Program-made: the position numbers and the translations under genes
Source of the DNA: Bacteroidaceae bacterium
Lineage (GTDB): Bacteria; Bacteroidota; Bacteroidia; Bacteroidales; Bacteroidaceae
Length of the DNA stretch: 40,248 nucleotides
Reading direction: 5' to 3'
Assembly (NCBI GenBank): GCA_017469685.1
Contig: JAFUFW010000040.1
Span: 1 to 40,248, forward strand
Shown: positions 1 to 31,147 of the stretch, piece after piece
Layout: each line of letters opens with the position of its first letter
Numbering within the stretch: the first letter of the stretch is position 1
The notes under the pieces: generated by a model
The model's database searches: none
The model's input: the letters and a program-made list of their open reading frames with translations, nothing else
Told to the model about the DNA's origin: nothing

Positions 1-273
1 CATGCCACCCATCAAGGCCATCACCTTGCAGCCTGGCTTCAAACCAGAGTCGGATGCATCGGCTATCTCGCCCACACATTCAATGCCTGGCACCACCGGA
101 GTGTTGATATAGTCGTTGTCGGCCTCATACATACGCAGGATGGCTTCCGAGTGATTCAGCCCGGCAGCATGTACCTTCACCAGAACCCATCCTGGTCGCA
201 CCTTAGGGACAGGAATCTCGCTCACCTTTAAGTCTTCGGCCTTGCAGCAGCCATTTATCACGATAGCTTTCAT
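1..273 (-). CDS. zinc-type alcohol dehydrogenase / quinone oxidoreductase, N-terminal part (runs off the window)
   Basis: The first 91 residues are visible, starting with ATG at 271-273; the rest lies beyond the left edge. The segment reads as the GroES-like N-terminal domain of the medium-chain dehydrogenase/reductase family: MKAIVI start, VLVKVHAAGLNHSE around residues 31-43 and PVVPGIECVGEI at 59-70, the usual 'P..G.E..G.V' turn. The position that holds a zinc-ligand Cys in true alcohol dehydrogenases reads Asn-His here, so a quinone-oxidoreductase-type enzyme without catalytic zinc is possible. It begins 6 bases after the stop of the ferredoxin-fusion gene, so it is the last visible member of the operon that starts with the ACGX-repeat peptide. 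The family call is secure; substrate and any role in peptide modification are unknown. Confidence 0.8.
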   Translation of the reverse strand, partial: MKAIVINGCCKAEDLKVSEIPVPKVRPGWVLVKVHAAGLNHSEAILRMYEADNDYINTPVVPGIECVGEIADASDSGLKPGCKVMALMGGM

Positions 274-279
274 CTGTTT

Positions 280-894
280 TTATTCTAATCTTATGATGGC
301 CTCCACAGGACAGTTCTCAAAACAGTTGCCGCAATGCAGACAGTGCTCTGGCTGGATGCGGTAAGGCTCACCCGCTTCAATACATCCCTGGGGACAATTG
401 GCTTCACAAGTCCCGCACTGAATGCAGGCATCCGTAATCTGGAACCCCTTCTGTTCTGGTTTGGCGTTGCCCATCGTATAATAATAGCGGTCGATAGGAC
501 GTACACCAAGATTGAAGTACTCTATTTGCGCATCACGAATGACGAAGATGATACCGATGCTGCGGGTGTCACCGGGATAGACGTTGACTAAATAAGGCTG
601 TTCCTCGAAGATGACGTTCTTCCAATGCTCCTGCTCGGCATCTGATACAGGCCGGGCGATGGCCGACAGACGGATCATCTCCTTATATTTCGTCAATGCA
701 TGAATCTGTACATGGCCGTCAGAGAGCAACTGGCGGCAGAAGTTCTTTCCACGAGCTGTATAGAAATAGATTGCGTCGGGCTCAAAGTGGACAGCCGAGA
801 TGCTACGCACCTGCGGATGACCATTTTCATCAACTGTGGCAAATGAAAGAATACCTACATAACCGAGTTTCTTGATACAAGTTTGTGCGTCCAT
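280..894 (-). CDS. pyridoxamine 5'-phosphate oxidase-like flavoprotein fused to a 2x[4Fe-4S] ferredoxin domain
   Basis: 204 residues. Residues 1-130 look like the split-barrel FMN-binding (PPOX-like) fold: GYVGILSFATVDENGHPQVR at 11-30, then AIYFYTARGKNFC at 41-53. Residues 150-204 are a bacterial ferredoxin domain with two CxxCxxCxxxC clusters (C157/160/163/167 and C185/188/191/195); C171 is extra. This architecture suggests an FMN enzyme that takes electrons from, or gives them to, its own iron-sulfur clusters. ATG at 892-894 lies 6 bases after the stop of the radical SAM gene, so the two are translated from one message. A role supplying reducing electrons to the radical SAM enzyme is plausible but is inference; similar fusions occur away from peptide clusters. 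Confidence 0.85.
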   Translation of the reverse strand: MDAQTCIKKLGYVGILSFATVDENGHPQVRSISAVHFEPDAIYFYTARGKNFCRQLLSDGHVQIHALTKYKEMIRLSAIARPVSDAEQEHWKNVIFEEQPYLVNVYPGDTRSIGIIFVIRDAQIEYFNLGVRPIDRYYYTMGNAKPEQKGFQITDACIQCGTCEANCPQGCIEAGEPYRIQPEHCLHCGNCFENCPVEAIIRLE

Positions 895-900
895 GAGCAG

Positions 901-1944
901 TTAGTTTTTATCTGTTTGTTTCCAGCACTGAGGGTCTGGAGCATAAAAATTCTTGGTATAACCATAGGCCACAGCAGGGCAGCCACGGCAGAAACGGAGC
1001 AGTTCACACTTCTGGCACTTCTCAAACTTCTCATGCTGACGATACTGCTCCATCTTACTTCCATGGAAAACGTCATACAGCTCTTCGTTCACTGTACCCA
1101 CATAGCTGTCAAAACGCCGGCAAGCCATCAGCCGCCCCTCAGCACTGATGGTGAAGTGGCAGTTGCCGCAGTTGCATCCATCATAAATGGTATCGTCATC
1201 CAGGCCTTCAGGAATCTTAAATAATCCCTTCTCGTAAAGGAAGAGCGTCCAGAGGTGATCTTTCAGGTTGAAAGTGGTGTCGGAGTCTTTATACAGCTCG
1301 AACTTCGCCCAACATTCCTCCAAGAACTGACGATAGCGCAACGGCTCCACGTGCCAAGTTTCCATGTGGGCTTTGTCTTCGCTTGTGGGGCAATAACGGC
1401 CAAAGGCGAAAATATCCACTTTGTGCTCCACGATGACATCAATCAACTGCGGAATCTCATCGATATTCGCTGCCGAAATGGTTGACATGATGGCACAGTG
1501 CATCCCGCTTTTGCGGATGGTCTCGATGGCCCGTAGCGTGGCATCGAAGCAACCGGGCTTGCGAAACTTGTCATGCGTCTCGCGAAGCCCATCAAGGCTC
1601 AACTGATACTTTCGGCATCCCAGTGACTTCATCCGCTGGCACACCTCGTCCGAGAGATGGAATGGATTGCCCATCAGCGTGAAGGGGATGCCGCGGGAGT
1701 GAACCAGCTCCAGAAAATCCCAGAAGTGCGAGTGCAGAATGGGGTCGCCACCCGTAATATAAAGATAAGGTGTGCGCTGCATCCGCTCTGCCATGCGCTC
1801 CACGTTTGCAAGCACTGCCACCAGCCTCTCCCAAGGCATCTCTATGAGTTTCGGATGACCATTGGAGAAGATGTAGCAGTGCTTGCAACGCTGGTCGCAC
1901 TCATCGGTGATATGCCATTGGAATGCGAAGCTTTCTAATTTCAC
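901..1944 (-). CDS. radical SAM/SPASM peptide-modifying enzyme (ACGX-type system)
   Basis: 347 residues. The radical SAM cluster motif CxxxCxxC is at C16, C20 and C23 (TDECDQRCKHCY), followed by the glycine-rich SAM-binding strand (ITGGDP). The C-terminal 95 residues are a Cys-rich SPASM domain with Cys at 257, 259, 262, 275, 310, 313, 319, 322 and 340, enough for two auxiliary [4Fe-4S] clusters. SPASM enzymes of this size normally crosslink or epimerise ribosomal peptides. The Cys-repeat peptide encoded 63 bases upstream is the obvious substrate. The only in-frame start upstream of the conserved motif is a GTG at 1942-1944. I recall that annotation pipelines have a family name for 'radical SAM/SPASM protein, ACGX system', which fits this pairing; exact family membership could not be searched. 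Confidence 0.85.
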   Translation of the reverse strand: MKLESFAFQWHITDECDQRCKHCYIFSNGHPKLIEMPWERLVAVLANVERMAERMQRTPYLYITGGDPILHSHFWDFLELVHSRGIPFTLMGNPFHLSDEVCQRMKSLGCRKYQLSLDGLRETHDKFRKPGCFDATLRAIETIRKSGMHCAIMSTISAANIDEIPQLIDVIVEHKVDIFAFGRYCPTSEDKAHMETWHVEPLRYRQFLEECWAKFELYKDSDTTFNLKDHLWTLFLYEKGLFKIPEGLDDDTIYDGCNCGNCHFTISAEGRLMACRRFDSYVGTVNEELYDVFHGSKMEQYRQHEKFEKCQKCELLRFCRGCPAVAYGYTKNFYAPDPQCWKQTDKN

Positions 1945-2007
1945 AATTTGACAATTTTGCGATCCGACAATTGTAAAATGGTGAAATAGTCCAATCGTCC
2001 CACAGGA

Positions 2008-2220
2008 CTATTTCTCTCCAGCACCACAAGCCGTTCCACAGGCAGCGGGCTTCTCTTCAGCGGGCTTATCACCTGCACCACATGCACTTCCGCAGGCTGC
2101 CGGCTTCTCCTCGGCGGGCTTATCGCCAGCACCACATGCAGCACCACATGCAGCAGGCTTCTCAGCGTTTAACATCATTCCTTGTGCGCTGTGCGCAAAG
2201 TTAAAATCCATTCTTTTCAT
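2008..2220 (-). CDS. ACGX-repeat peptide, probable radical SAM RiPP precursor
   Basis: 70 residues, ATG at 2218-2220. Residues 1-21 form a Cys-free leader (MKRMDFNFAHSAQGMMLNAE). After it an 18-residue unit occurs three times, each with a doublet of ACGX tetrads: Cys 25/29, 43/47 and 61/65, with X = Ala, Ser or Thr in the first tetrad and Ala in the second. Doublets are separated by a charged DKPAEEKPA linker. Every Cys is followed by Gly and spaced CxxxC. The DNA repeats are nearly identical, showing recent duplication. It is first in the operon, directly upstream of the radical SAM enzyme and behind a Bacteroidota promoter. From memory, typical ACGX peptides carry many tandem tetrads without linkers, so the doublet-linker layout is unusual. 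A metal-binding peptide is the alternative. Confidence 0.8.
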   Translation of the reverse strand: MKRMDFNFAHSAQGMMLNAEKPAACGAACGAGDKPAEEKPAACGSACGAGDKPAEEKPAACGTACGAGEK

Positions 2221-2274
2221 AGTTTTTTTTGGGTAAAGTTAGACATTGCGGTCACTTTTTGTCTGTAACCGCCC

Positions 2275-2305
2275 CAAAGGTACTACCTTTTAACCAAAGG
2301 ACAAT
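2275..2305 (-). promoter_or_regulatory. promoter of the ACGX peptide operon
   Basis: On the minus strand a TACCTTTG -7 box (2275-2282) follows a TTG -33 element (2302-2304) with a 19-base spacer, the standard Bacteroidota housekeeping promoter. Transcription would start near 2268 and give a leader of about 50 bases before the peptide start. Confidence 0.7.
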
Positions 2306-28021: not shown

Positions 28022-28221
28022 AGTGGTTAGTTTTTGTTTATGAGTTTATGTCGGTGAATTGTTTTGTCTGGTTTGTCAGAGCCTATGCTGAGTCCTGATT
28101 TCGGCCACAAAAATAGTCATTTAGCTTCGTATTCCCGCATCTTCGGGCACTTTTTTTGTGCTAAAAACATCTTTTACGAAATTAATTTGTGAAAAATGAG
28201 CTTACGTAAGCCGCTTTATCT

Positions 28222-28229
28222 TATCTTTG
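28222..28229 (+). promoter_or_regulatory. -7 box of the MG2 protein gene
   Basis: TATCTTTG on the plus strand. With a start point near 28236, the ATG at 28268 is the best initiation site, and the in-frame ATG at 28196 is upstream of the transcript. Confidence 0.6.
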
Positions 28230-28267
28230 TACCCATGAAAGCTTCTGTACTTCACGTCGTTCGCAAC

Positions 28268-31147
28268 ATGCGAGCGCAGATTTTCTATATGCTCCTGCTG
28301 CTGTCAGCCATGCCGGCAGCAGCACAGACGCCAGCCTCGCCGCCCACTACCGTTGCCGGCTGGGCTGACCGCCTCGCGCGCTTCGGCTCGGGCATCCCGC
28401 AGGAGAAAGTGTTCGTGCACATGGACAACACCTGCTACTTCCTGGGCGACACCATCTGGTTTGCAGCCTACACCCGCCGCACCGACCGCCATGCACCGTC
28501 AAACGTCAGCGGAGTGCTCTACGTGGAACTGCTCAATCAGGACGGTTACCTCGTAGAGCGTCAGCTCGTTGAGATGCATGAAGGCCGCGCCCACGGAGCT
28601 TTTGCCCTGCCCGACACCCTCTACGGCGGCTTCTACGAGCTGCGGGCTTACACCCGCTGGCAGCTCAACTGGGGCATCACCGAGAAGGAGCATACGCCCT
28701 ACGCCGAGCAGTGGTTCTACTCCGAGGCTATGGCGAAGGACTTTTATCGCGACTATGAGAAGCTCTACAGCCGCGTCTTTCCCGTCTACGACAAGCCTGA
28801 GCGCCCCGGCGAGTTCTTCCACGACATGACGTCGCGCCCCCTGCGCCGCTATTTCAGCAGCGGAGCTGAGGAACCGCAGCCGCGGCTCTCGCTCTTTCCC
28901 GAAGGCGGAAACCTCGTTGGTGGCACGCCCTGCCGCATGGCTTTTGAGGCCGCTACGGAGACTGGCGAAGCGCTCGAAGGGCGCGTAAGCCTCGCCAACA
29001 GCAGTGGCAACGTGGTTGCCGAGGCGGCCACCGTCAGTCGCGGACGCGGACTTCTGAGCTTTACCCCTCAGGCCGGCGAGAGATATACAGCCACTTTCAC
29101 TGCCGCCGAAGGGCGCAGTGCCAGCCAGAAGACCGAGCGAGTTGAGGCCGACGGCGTTGCGCTGACCGTCGCCCGTCAGGCCGACGACTATACCTTTGAG
29201 ATTGCAGCCCAAGGCGCAGCAGCCGGGCGGGAGCTCGGACTCACCGTCATGCACGAGGGTGTGGTCGTTCAGAGCCAAGTGATAGCACCTGCTTCTACGC
29301 CCTCGAGGATAAAGTTTGAGGCCGCAAAAAGCAGTGGGAGTCAGGCGGAAACCACGGCAGGTCTGCACCAAGTGACGATCTTCGACGCCGACGGCCGTGT
29401 CTGGGCCGACCGCCTCTTCTTTGTAATGCCAGCTGAAATGTCTGCTTCGGCCCTCGTCGTAGGAGGATTGAAGGACGAATACGAGCCTTTCGAGCAGGTC
29501 AGCCTCGACGTTGCCACTGCCGCCCCGGCCTCTGCATCCGACGCCTCTGCCACTGCGCTCTCCATCGCTGTTCGCGATGCGGGCTCGAGCGACTACACTT
29601 TCGACACGTCGAACATCCTCACCGAGATGCTCCTGTCGTCTGAGATACGCGGCTACGTGCCTGACCCCGCCTATTTCTTCGAGGCCGATGATGACGAACA
29701 TCGTGTTGCCCTCGACCTGCTGATGCTCACGCAGGGTTGGCGCCGCTTTGCCTGGCACGCTATGGCTACGCCCGGCGCCTTCGAACTCTCGCAGCCCGCC
29801 GAGACCCGCACTCAGATTCTCCGAGGCGAGGTGCTCAACTATACAACCCGCACCCCGCAGGACGACGTGAGAGGCTTAGGCGAGGTGCCCCTGCCTTATA
29901 ATCTGGAAGAACGCATCGCCCGTCTGCACCCCGGCGAGGAGCGCGACTTCCTGGACAGCCTCCGAGACAGCGGCGAAATCTCCACCGAGGATGAATACGA
30001 GAACCTCGGTCAGGGCGAAATCTTCCAGACCATCGTGGCCGAGATCTATGCCAAGGAACGCCATTTCCCCTCGGGCAGCTACCAGATGAACGCTCCCATC
30101 GCCACCAGCCGCTTCTTCCAGAAGGAGGCGTCGCTGGGCAACGAGGTGCGCGTCCACGCCGAGTTCACGCAGCCCGGCAGCGAATCCGTCATCGGTGATA
30201 TGGATACTCGCAATGGAATGTTCAATATTCCGGCTCCGCGCTTCAACGGGTACTGCGTTTTCTTCCTTGCTGCCAGCGACACCACAAAGTGGCAGTCGGC
30301 CCGCCACACGTGGATAGACATGGACGAGACAAAGAACCCTGAGTTCTATCTGCGCATAGCCTGGCCCTACCCACGCTTCACAAAAGCCTACAACCACTAC
30401 CAGACCTCATACCGCGAAGCGCCTTCTGACTCTCCGCAGGCCGCACAGACTTCGCTCTTCAACCCAAAGACTTTCGAGACGCAGATGAGCGGTTTGACCG
30501 TCAGGGCCCGTCGTGGCGGCCTGCGACGCTTCGACCCCTCGGCACCAGCCCTCGTCGTCGATGCCTACGAAGCGTTCAACGAGGTCTGCGACGCTGGCTT
30601 CGCAGCTGGATTCTACGGCGGTCGCACATCATTCATTAATAGTATAGCACGCGCGTACGTAGGCGATATGAACACGTCTCACGCCTATCTGCTCGAACCG
30701 CGCTACGATGGCACCAACATTTCGCGGCAGCGTTCGGCTCAGGCCATGAACCGCTTCAACATGCTGGCCAACCTCGACAGCGTGCGCATCTACACTGATT
30801 TCAACCCGCGCTACGGCGCCGACCCACGCGCCACAGAGGATAATGTAGACCGCGTGAGCGTGGACCTGCGCCAGCTGCCCGATGATGGCAGCCGCGTCAC
30901 CTACCGCGACCGCCGCTACATCCTCCAAGGCTTCTCTGAGGCTGAGGAGTTCTACAACCCCGACTACAGCCGCCACGCACTCCCAGAAGGGCAGGCCGAC
31001 TACCGCCGCACCATATATTGGAACCCCGAGCTGCAGCTCGATGCCCAGGGACGTGCGCGCATCAGCTTCTACACAGGCAGCCGTCCGGCAACGCTCGCCG
31101 TGAGCGCCAACGGACAGACGGCAGGCGGAAAACTCCTTACTAACTGA
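28268..31147 (+). CDS. large secreted protein with macroglobulin-like MG2 domain
   Basis: 959 residues from ATG 28268 (28235 also possible). Signal peptide QIFYMLLLLSAMPAAAQ. After it comes an MG2-like beta-sandwich: IPQEKVFVHMDNTCYFLGDT, TIWFAAYTRR, then GGFYELRAYTRW. The middle holds further beta domains (LSLFPEGGNLVGGTPCRMAF) and a segment LMLTQGWRRFAW. The C-terminus (YWNPELQLDAQGRARISFYT) matches the closing beta domain of Bacteroidota MG2/TonB-plug-like proteins. These are thought to be envelope proteins, perhaps acting with TonB receptors; function unproven. A monocistronic gene bounded by a promoter and an inverted-repeat element. Confidence 0.85.
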   Translation: MRAQIFYMLLLLSAMPAAAQTPASPPTTVAGWADRLARFGSGIPQEKVFVHMDNTCYFLGDTIWFAAYTRRTDRHAPSNVSGVLYVELLNQDGYLVERQLVEMHEGRAHGAFALPDTLYGGFYELRAYTRWQLNWGITEKEHTPYAEQWFYSEAMAKDFYRDYEKLYSRVFPVYDKPERPGEFFHDMTSRPLRRYFSSGAEEPQPRLSLFPEGGNLVGGTPCRMAFEAATETGEALEGRVSLANSSGNVVAEAATVSRGRGLLSFTPQAGERYTATFTAAEGRSASQKTERVEADGVALTVARQADDYTFEIAAQGAAAGRELGLTVMHEGVVVQSQVIAPASTPSRIKFEAAKSSGSQAETTAGLHQVTIFDADGRVWADRLFFVMPAEMSASALVVGGLKDEYEPFEQVSLDVATAAPASASDASATALSIAVRDAGSSDYTFDTSNILTEMLLSSEIRGYVPDPAYFFEADDDEHRVALDLLMLTQGWRRFAWHAMATPGAFELSQPAETRTQILRGEVLNYTTRTPQDDVRGLGEVPLPYNLEERIARLHPGEERDFLDSLRDSGEISTEDEYENLGQGEIFQTIVAEIYAKERHFPSGSYQMNAPIATSRFFQKEASLGNEVRVHAEFTQPGSESVIGDMDTRNGMFNIPAPRFNGYCVFFLAASDTTKWQSARHTWIDMDETKNPEFYLRIAWPYPRFTKAYNHYQTSYREAPSDSPQAAQTSLFNPKTFETQMSGLTVRARRGGLRRFDPSAPALVVDAYEAFNEVCDAGFAAGFYGGRTSFINSIARAYVGDMNTSHAYLLEPRYDGTNISRQRSAQAMNRFNMLANLDSVRIYTDFNPRYGADPRATEDNVDRVSVDLRQLPDDGSRVTYRDRRYILQGFSEAEEFYNPDYSRHALPEGQADYRRTIYWNPELQLDAQGRARISFYTGSRPATLAVSANGQTAGGKLLTN

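Follow-up and report, generated by a model that had tools for sequence, protein, structure and literature searches.

Several described systems come close to the locus reported here. Regulators of the DUF24/HxlR family, such as HypR, YodB and CatR, are reported to sense HOCl, quinones and diamide through an N-terminal Cys, with the nitroreductase YodC among the genes induced in this regulation (PMC6943732), and YodB is described as favouring the palindrome TACT-N7-AGTA (PMC8063818). In the SirTM/Zn-macrodomain redox operons, lipoyl-GcvH-L is presented as the sole protein for which ADP-ribosylation by a SirTM is known, other targets being unknown (PMC11490716). The radical SAM enzyme SbtM is described as stripping four hydrogens from Cys peptides to yield thiooxazole (PMC11002830). 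Finally, NCBIfam holds the families target_ACGX (TIGR04341) and rSAM_ACGX (TIGR04340, a "hypoth_equivalog"), whose labels cover only a Cys-repeat peptide and its maturase. Here, we followed up an ACGX locus at bases 1-2305 of contig JAFUFW010000040.1 from a Bacteroidaceae bacterium (assembly GCA_017469685.1, 87% complete); the window is the whole stretch of 40,248 nucleotides analysed, and its base 1 is the contig end. As seen in relatives, the ACGX cassette shares with the HypR, YodB and CatR regulons the regulator family with its N-terminal Cys, a palindromic upstream element and a nitroreductase partner, and it adds a ribosomal Cys-repeat peptide with a maturase. We propose, at a probability of about 0.5, that the cassette may be an inducible intracellular redox/electrophile-stress module built on the ACGX peptide.

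The four reading frames of the locus lie on the minus strand where the initial annotation had placed them, with the 70-residue precursor (2008..2220) directly ahead of the radical SAM/SPASM enzyme (901..1944, 347 amino acids; Pfam Radical_SAM and SPASM). Both proteins pass curated cut-offs: the precursor reaches 66.9 bits against the TIGR04341 threshold of 28, and the maturase 546 bits against the TIGR04340 threshold of 400. The pair thus belongs to families already described, and such scores also rule out a chance find. The scores support the proposal that a SPASM maturase is paired with a Cys-repeat precursor of its own; among the best 25 of 66 families for the window maturase, none was a CXXX-repeat model. 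The precursor carries three ACGXACGX units (Cys 25/29, 43/47 and 61/65), visible in the DNA as a tandem array with a period of 54 bp and 2.7 copies (Tandem Repeats Finder), and its stop lies 63 nt from the maturase gene on the same strand. The other two frames encode a PNPOx-type FMN split-barrel fused to a 2[4Fe-4S] ferredoxin (PNPOx-Fd; 280..894, 204 amino acids, PF01243 and Fer4 families) and the N-terminal 91 amino acids of a medium-chain, quinone-oxidoreductase-like reductase (MDR; 1..273, PF08240). The peptide-maturase pair is real, and it is known yet unexplained. In the open PMC literature, subscription papers being outside the scope, we found no paper using the ACGX family names and none joining three of HxlR, radical SAM, nitroreductase and Cys-rich peptide, and the main text of a survey of ribosomally synthesized and post-translationally modified peptides (RiPPs) in Bacteroidales contains no word starting with ACG or TIGR04 (PMC10352776). 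What is new is the genomic context, which adds to the two family labels an HxlR regulator, an interchangeable reductase, PNPOx-Fd, SirTM with Zn-macrodomain proteins and an upstream element, and which offers a testable function for two named families to which the open papers searched assign none.

To place the locus, we used the best 80 of 498 relatives, 299 evenly drawn Lachnospiraceae genomes (38 maturase places, 35 distinct loci) and 149 genomes from the order to which a Methanobacteriaceae genome belongs, presumably Methanobacteriales, in which 20 of 35 places were read. Locus counts exclude the window and three Lachnospiraceae loci identical in DNA to loci of the relatives set. Within the window's order, 5 of 393 genomes (the window genome included) have a maturase over its cut-off, as do 36 of 299 Lachnospiraceae and 31 of the 149 archaeal-order genomes. 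The precursor family is passed in 28/299 Lachnospiraceae genomes, all of them within the 37 with a maturase, and in 16/371 genomes of a class-level sample scanned for the precursor only. The cassette is common to two bacterial phyla and one archaeal order. The initial annotation would have been contradicted by maturase genes regularly standing without a Cys-repeat peptide; instead, an ACGX peptide adjoins the maturase in 74/80 relatives, 33/38 Lachnospiraceae places and 17/20 archaeal loci, and three of the six relatives lacking one are cut by a contig end within 47 bp of the maturase gene. The 33 Lachnospiraceae places comprise 29 that were scored first and four more, whose precursors are respectively fused, degenerate, fragmentary and in a long frame. 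Stop-to-stop re-reading recovered precursors in L172, L173 (the fusion), L183 (degenerate) and L196 (a fragment), and revealed none in L192, L193, L194, L195 and L197.

Partner genes were assigned with profiles iterated from our own seeds (E 1e-6, or 1e-5 for Archaea) rather than with curated cut-offs, and these profiles also told apart nitroreductase and PNPOx-Fd, which a first clustering had merged. Within 4 kb of the maturase, in the 80 relatives and the 35 Lachnospiraceae loci respectively, we counted HxlR in 65 and 28 (two of these 93 being fragments below 95 amino acids), MDR in 44 and 7, nitroreductase in 29 and 17, PNPOx-Fd in 34 and 19, SirTM in 24 and 19, Zn-macrodomain in 9 and 12, and ABM in 13 and 0. 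The 20 archaeal loci hold PNPOx-Fd in 19, MDR in 18, HxlR in 17 and nitroreductase in one. Nitroreductase and MDR never occur together (0/119 loci). In the 86 loci that have a precursor and extend 1.5 kb or more downstream, a nitroreductase is present in 38, an MDR in 42 and neither in six; 85 contain at least one of the four redox families. The two reductases switch at least 17 times on the maturase tree, a quick tree in which 31 of 108 inner branches are starred and from which eight rows (short or without motif match) were left out, and the exchange reaches the window's own clade, where L034 has an MDR and L035 and L036 a nitroreductase. Because the reductases are both exclusive and exchanged, the cassette seems to require one NAD(P)H/flavin reductase activity, from either the nitroreductase or the MDR family.

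These counts show that the redox partners named in the initial annotation belong to the system, as all four genes recur in relatives. Their order is conserved only in part: the window order is found in 13 loci (in L104 with intervening genes), but the partners are exchanged, and we reject a fixed four-gene operon. In Archaea, PNPOx-Fd and MDR occur together in 18/20 loci, mostly in swapped order. The enzyme annotated as an alcohol dehydrogenase has the expected family frame, which can be refined to PIG3/quinone-oxidoreductase-like: the top NCBIfam model of its full-length relative in L034 is quinone_pig3 (163.5 bits, under its cut-off of 296.8), and the window N-terminus has no GHE-type sequence, a trait of zinc alcohol dehydrogenases. 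Its frame stops after 91 residues because the contig ends, and no second piece was found in its own assembly with the full-length relative as query. In PNPOx-Fd, the eight ferredoxin Cys are invariant across 14 aligned sequences; the AlphaFold2 model is good for the barrel and poor for the ferredoxin, and its Foldseek matches include 2hhz and 2ig6, the latter of the NimC/NimA family.

In relatives, HxlR is usually the fifth gene, so that the window equivalent would fall past the contig end. Such genes are scarce in these genomes: 12 ACGX genomes hold 21 at E<=1e-10, and in 7 of the 12 the cassette copy is the sole one. An N-terminal Cys-Pro is present in 92/96 cassette HxlR proteins (the rest being two fragments below 95 amino acids and two others), close to the sensing site of HypR, YodB and CatR (PMC6943732), although the family at large may have this feature. 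Upstream of the precursor, the pattern GTTAY N5-9 GTRAC occurs in 13/54 Bacteroidales and 18/45 other regions (31/99), against shuffled means of 0.35 and 0.32, respectively, and none of 373 control upstream regions; five regions shorter than 150 bp were excluded from this set, as were the three duplicate loci and a duplicate of the window. The sequence GTGCGTACTT is found in 38/45 of the other regions, in 0/54 Bacteroidales regions and in 0/373 controls, and GTTAY...GTRAC also in 7/15 archaeal upstream regions. In the window, the candidate operator is the imperfect palindrome GGTTACAGACAAAAAGTGACC (minus-strand reading) at 2250..2270, 30 nt ahead of the precursor start. A TAnnTTTG box ends five bases ahead of GTTAY in 10/10 chosen Bacteroidales regions, window included; left out were L007, whose maturase is that of L056, and L035 and L043, in which some 100 nt separate the element from the start. 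The candidate Bacteroidales-type promoter (2275..2304, minus strand) combines TACCTTTG at 2275-2282 with a TTG 19 nt upstream (in 2294-2304), in line with the -7/-33 consensus. We also considered the element as a mark of a genome-wide regulon and rejected this: in the window genome the only exact match is the one at the cassette, with one further match containing a mismatch, and two of nine genomes have no match at all.

A SirTM-like gene is present in 43/119 loci and a macrodomain gene in 21/119, with flavin reductases beside them. The SIR2-like neighbour in L091 matches the solved SirTM 5a3a (244 bits, E 2e-71), and the macrodomain neighbour in L097 passes NF003163 (363 bits, cut-off 272). 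In Lachnospiraceae, SirTM lies within 4 kb at 22/38 places and is found anywhere in the genome in 32/37 ACGX genomes versus 109/262 others (Fisher p 2e-7, relatedness ignored). Our own profile detects none in the 20 archaeal loci, and among Bacteroidales it is present in five loci only (L048, L050, L053, L065 and L097), and we therefore regard it as an add-on. For nitroreductase as a predictor of SirTM, the well-supported branches offer five independent pairs, with a median sign-test p of 1. Neither SirTM nor a Zn-macrodomain gene was seen in the window contig, which ends at base 1; the window genome was not searched for these genes. Furthermore, one locus carries a fusion: L173:7420-8169 (minus strand) encodes a 249-amino-acid Flavin_Reduct (PF01613) protein whose C-terminal ACGX tail passes TIGR04341 and which stands in the precursor's place. 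This locus has HxlR and the maturase and no free precursor, and nitroreductase, MDR and PNPOx-Fd were not found there by our own profiles. If real, the fusion links the peptide to an intracellular reductase.

In the maturase, the CxxxCxxC motif and eight more C-terminal (SPASM) Cys are invariant across 18 aligned sequences, and these eight would be enough to ligate two auxiliary clusters. After its own family, the runner-up profile is SbtM (TIGR04082) in 8/8 members scanned, at 168-205 bits against a cut-off of 350. For the window maturase, the match (180 bits, also under the cut-off) covers residues 4-340 of 347 and only positions 197-515 of the profile, and the enzyme is without the N-terminal part of SbtM. 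The PapB and SkfB models score 57.7 (cut-off 340) and 51.6 bits (cut-off 300), neither cut-off being reached. That the peptide is modified is very probable. The likeness to SbtM is the sole homology hint to the chemistry, and a weak one: we tentatively and slightly favour a thiooxazole-type modification over a thioether, which we consider unlikely. TIGR04340 scores are lower for the maturases of L193 and L008 (492 and 486 bits) and SbtM scores higher (201 and 205 bits); HxlR and reductase were not found in these two loci by our own profiles, and both look like members of a neighbouring subfamily. Downstream of the divergent maturase in L193 (5000-5209, minus strand), a 69-amino-acid frame ends in the Cys-rich run CDCGSSSCSGSSSCGASCSSC and is perhaps a substrate of a subfamily between ACGX and SbtM. 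L195 has a 332-residue open stretch with a Ser/Gly/Cys-rich tail upstream of a distant maturase relative, and a small ferredoxin-like frame after that relative.

Family membership, gene association, the exclusivity and exchange of the reductases, the shared upstream element and the one reductase-ACGX fusion were computed directly, and every electron path proposed below is one that we infer. Since the cassette combines a redox gene set with its own switch, its role would lie inside the cell rather than being that of a secreted antibiotic. The HxlR/DUF24-type regulator would hold the promoter through GTTAY...GTRAC and release it under thiol-reactive or redox stress. The precursor would then be made and its ACGX Cys oxidatively modified by the SPASM enzyme, with PNPOx-Fd most likely feeding low-potential electrons to the iron-sulfur clusters of the maturase, or connecting flavin to the peptide. 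In each cassette, a single NAD(P)H-dependent reductase (the MDR in the window, a nitroreductase in others) would work with or on the modified peptide, whose repeat number would determine capacity instead of a defined structure. Many Lachnospiraceae and a handful of Bacteroidales would gain ADP-ribosylation through SirTM, in some cases joined by a Zn-macrodomain protein. For the peptide itself, a redox/electrophile-response role is, in our estimation, at or just above even odds. Such a ribosomal, probably modified peptide under an HxlR switch would serve intracellular redox/electrophile defence in gut and rumen bacteria and in methanogens.

A number of observations weigh against this reading. 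The HxlR, nitroreductase and MDR families have other functions too, the counts come from related loci, and the similarity to SbtM is far under the SbtM cut-off. No HxlR was found in the window genome at E<=1e-10, the window contig ending before the expected place of the gene. The element patterns were devised after viewing the same regions, and GTTAY...GTRAC is lacking in 41/54 Bacteroidales and 27/45 other regions. The L173 fusion is a single case: among its genus-mates, two of five have homologues whose match stops short of the tail, and three of five have none at E<=1e-30. Finally, ABC-transporter genes occur in 7/84 loci (0.2 to 5.3 kb away) and in 10/38 Lachnospiraceae windows (median 3.9 kb), which leaves room for an exporter.

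The repeats themselves suggest another possibility, namely that thiooxazole-type Cys ligands arranged in repeats chelate an intracellular metal such as Cu(I), as in the copper peptides made by MNIO enzymes. In the 101 distinct precursors (the bacterial loci and the archaeal L101), a Gly comes directly after 608/621 Cys, mostly in the form ACG[AST]; Cys are most often spaced by 4 and next by 13-14, and 96/101 precursors contain a CGxxCG pair. Such tandem paired CG motifs resemble the Microbulbifer copper-binding peptide, which is described as carrying six thiooxazoles in three cassettes, with the ring between Lys-Cys-Gly, as having no protease gene nearby and as proposed to act inside the cell (PMC12538549); the closest profile neighbour of the maturase, SbtM, is a thiooxazole maker as well. 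However, no metal transporter, metal regulator or metallochaperone was recognised among the recurring neighbours, nearly all of which are annotated (an ArsC-like gene recurs in just 5/20 archaeal loci), and the cassette has HxlR as its regulator and reductases as its partners. In addition, the pairing is lost in the archaeal precursors, which have a different leader and runs of single ACGS/ACGD-type units (all single in the 16 with a readable repeat core), and in 5/101 distinct precursors, which are singlets. The number of CG per precursor ranges from 3 to 11 (6 or 8 among the window's nearest relatives). With both pairing and unit number variable, a capacity fits better than one defined ligand, and we consider metal binding unlikely, if the best placed of the alternatives. 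The same single-ACGX members have the same partners, and those partners have been swapped many times; the distinct sub-type defined by doublets and redox partners in the initial annotation is therefore not upheld, and doublets are not a defining feature. In an archaeal locus, L248:2448-2711 encodes a second peptide resembling a precursor, which joins the archaeal ACGX leader to a TSCC/TSCS-repeat core and whose cluster members also lie near HxlR in L244 and L245.

The modified repeats could also serve as a redox cofactor derived from a peptide, following the logic of mycofactocin, and accept electrons or hydride from the cassette MDR or nitroreductase or donate them to it. One reductase per cassette, drawn from two unrelated families with at least 17 exchanges, would suit this, as would the flavin reductase with an ACGX tail in L173. 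Both reductase families nevertheless use nicotinamide or flavin cofactors of their own, a processing peptidase was not recognised among the recurring neighbours, and a defined cofactor would not usually vary in its number of repeats, so we see this as somewhat less probable still than metal binding. Finally, an ordinary secreted RiPP with sacti- or ranthipeptide-type thioethers, antimicrobial or signalling, appears improbable: SPASM enzymes acting on Cys-rich peptides often yield thioethers, the maturase has its profile similarity to PapB and SkfB and some loci have the ABC-transporter genes counted above, but genes for an exporter, a peptidase or immunity have no constant position within it, a Gly-Gly precedes the core in only 7/101 precursors, and the core, mainly Ala, Gly, Cys, Lys, Pro, Ser, Glu and Asp, has next to no hydrophobic or aromatic residues.

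Returning to the redox/electrophile-stress module, its overlap with the SirTM/Zn-macrodomain operon that carries lipoyl-GcvH-L allows a more speculative extension. Both can have SirTM, a macrodomain protein and neighbouring flavin reductases, whereas in the ACGX loci a Cys-repeat peptide stands in place of GcvH-L, and no GcvH-like family was recognised among the annotated recurring neighbours. It is conceivable, though we would not bet on it, that ACGX peptides are encoded, repeat-scalable redox/electrophile carriers, counterparts of lipoyl-GcvH-L and targets of the SirTM found outside the GcvH-L operon, alone or with a Zn-macrodomain protein; the L173 fusion would then be an enzyme with a built-in carrier. 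This would give a candidate answer to a question raised in PMC11490716, that of the substrates of SirTM/Zn-macrodomain pairs without GcvH-L. Radical SAM enzymes are not mentioned in the SirTM/macrodomain papers found in the open literature.

The recurring neighbour clusters were annotated except for three, one of them tRNA-synthetase-like, and no peptidase family was recognised among those annotated. They further include AraC regulators, HAD hydrolases, a hexapeptide transferase, ketopantoate hydroxymethyltransferase, DUF1848, ThuA-like and housekeeping genes. MatE genes occur in 4/38 Lachnospiraceae windows, and two archaeal neighbour families of 110 amino acids have no Pfam match. Elsewhere in the window, a 983-amino-acid frame at 28196-31147 is without Pfam hits at E 1e-5. 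A cluster of overlapping palindromes built on AACCCTTAAGGGTT, with arms of up to 43 nt, occupies positions 2599-2701, in the gap that separates the ACGX promoter from the next gene.

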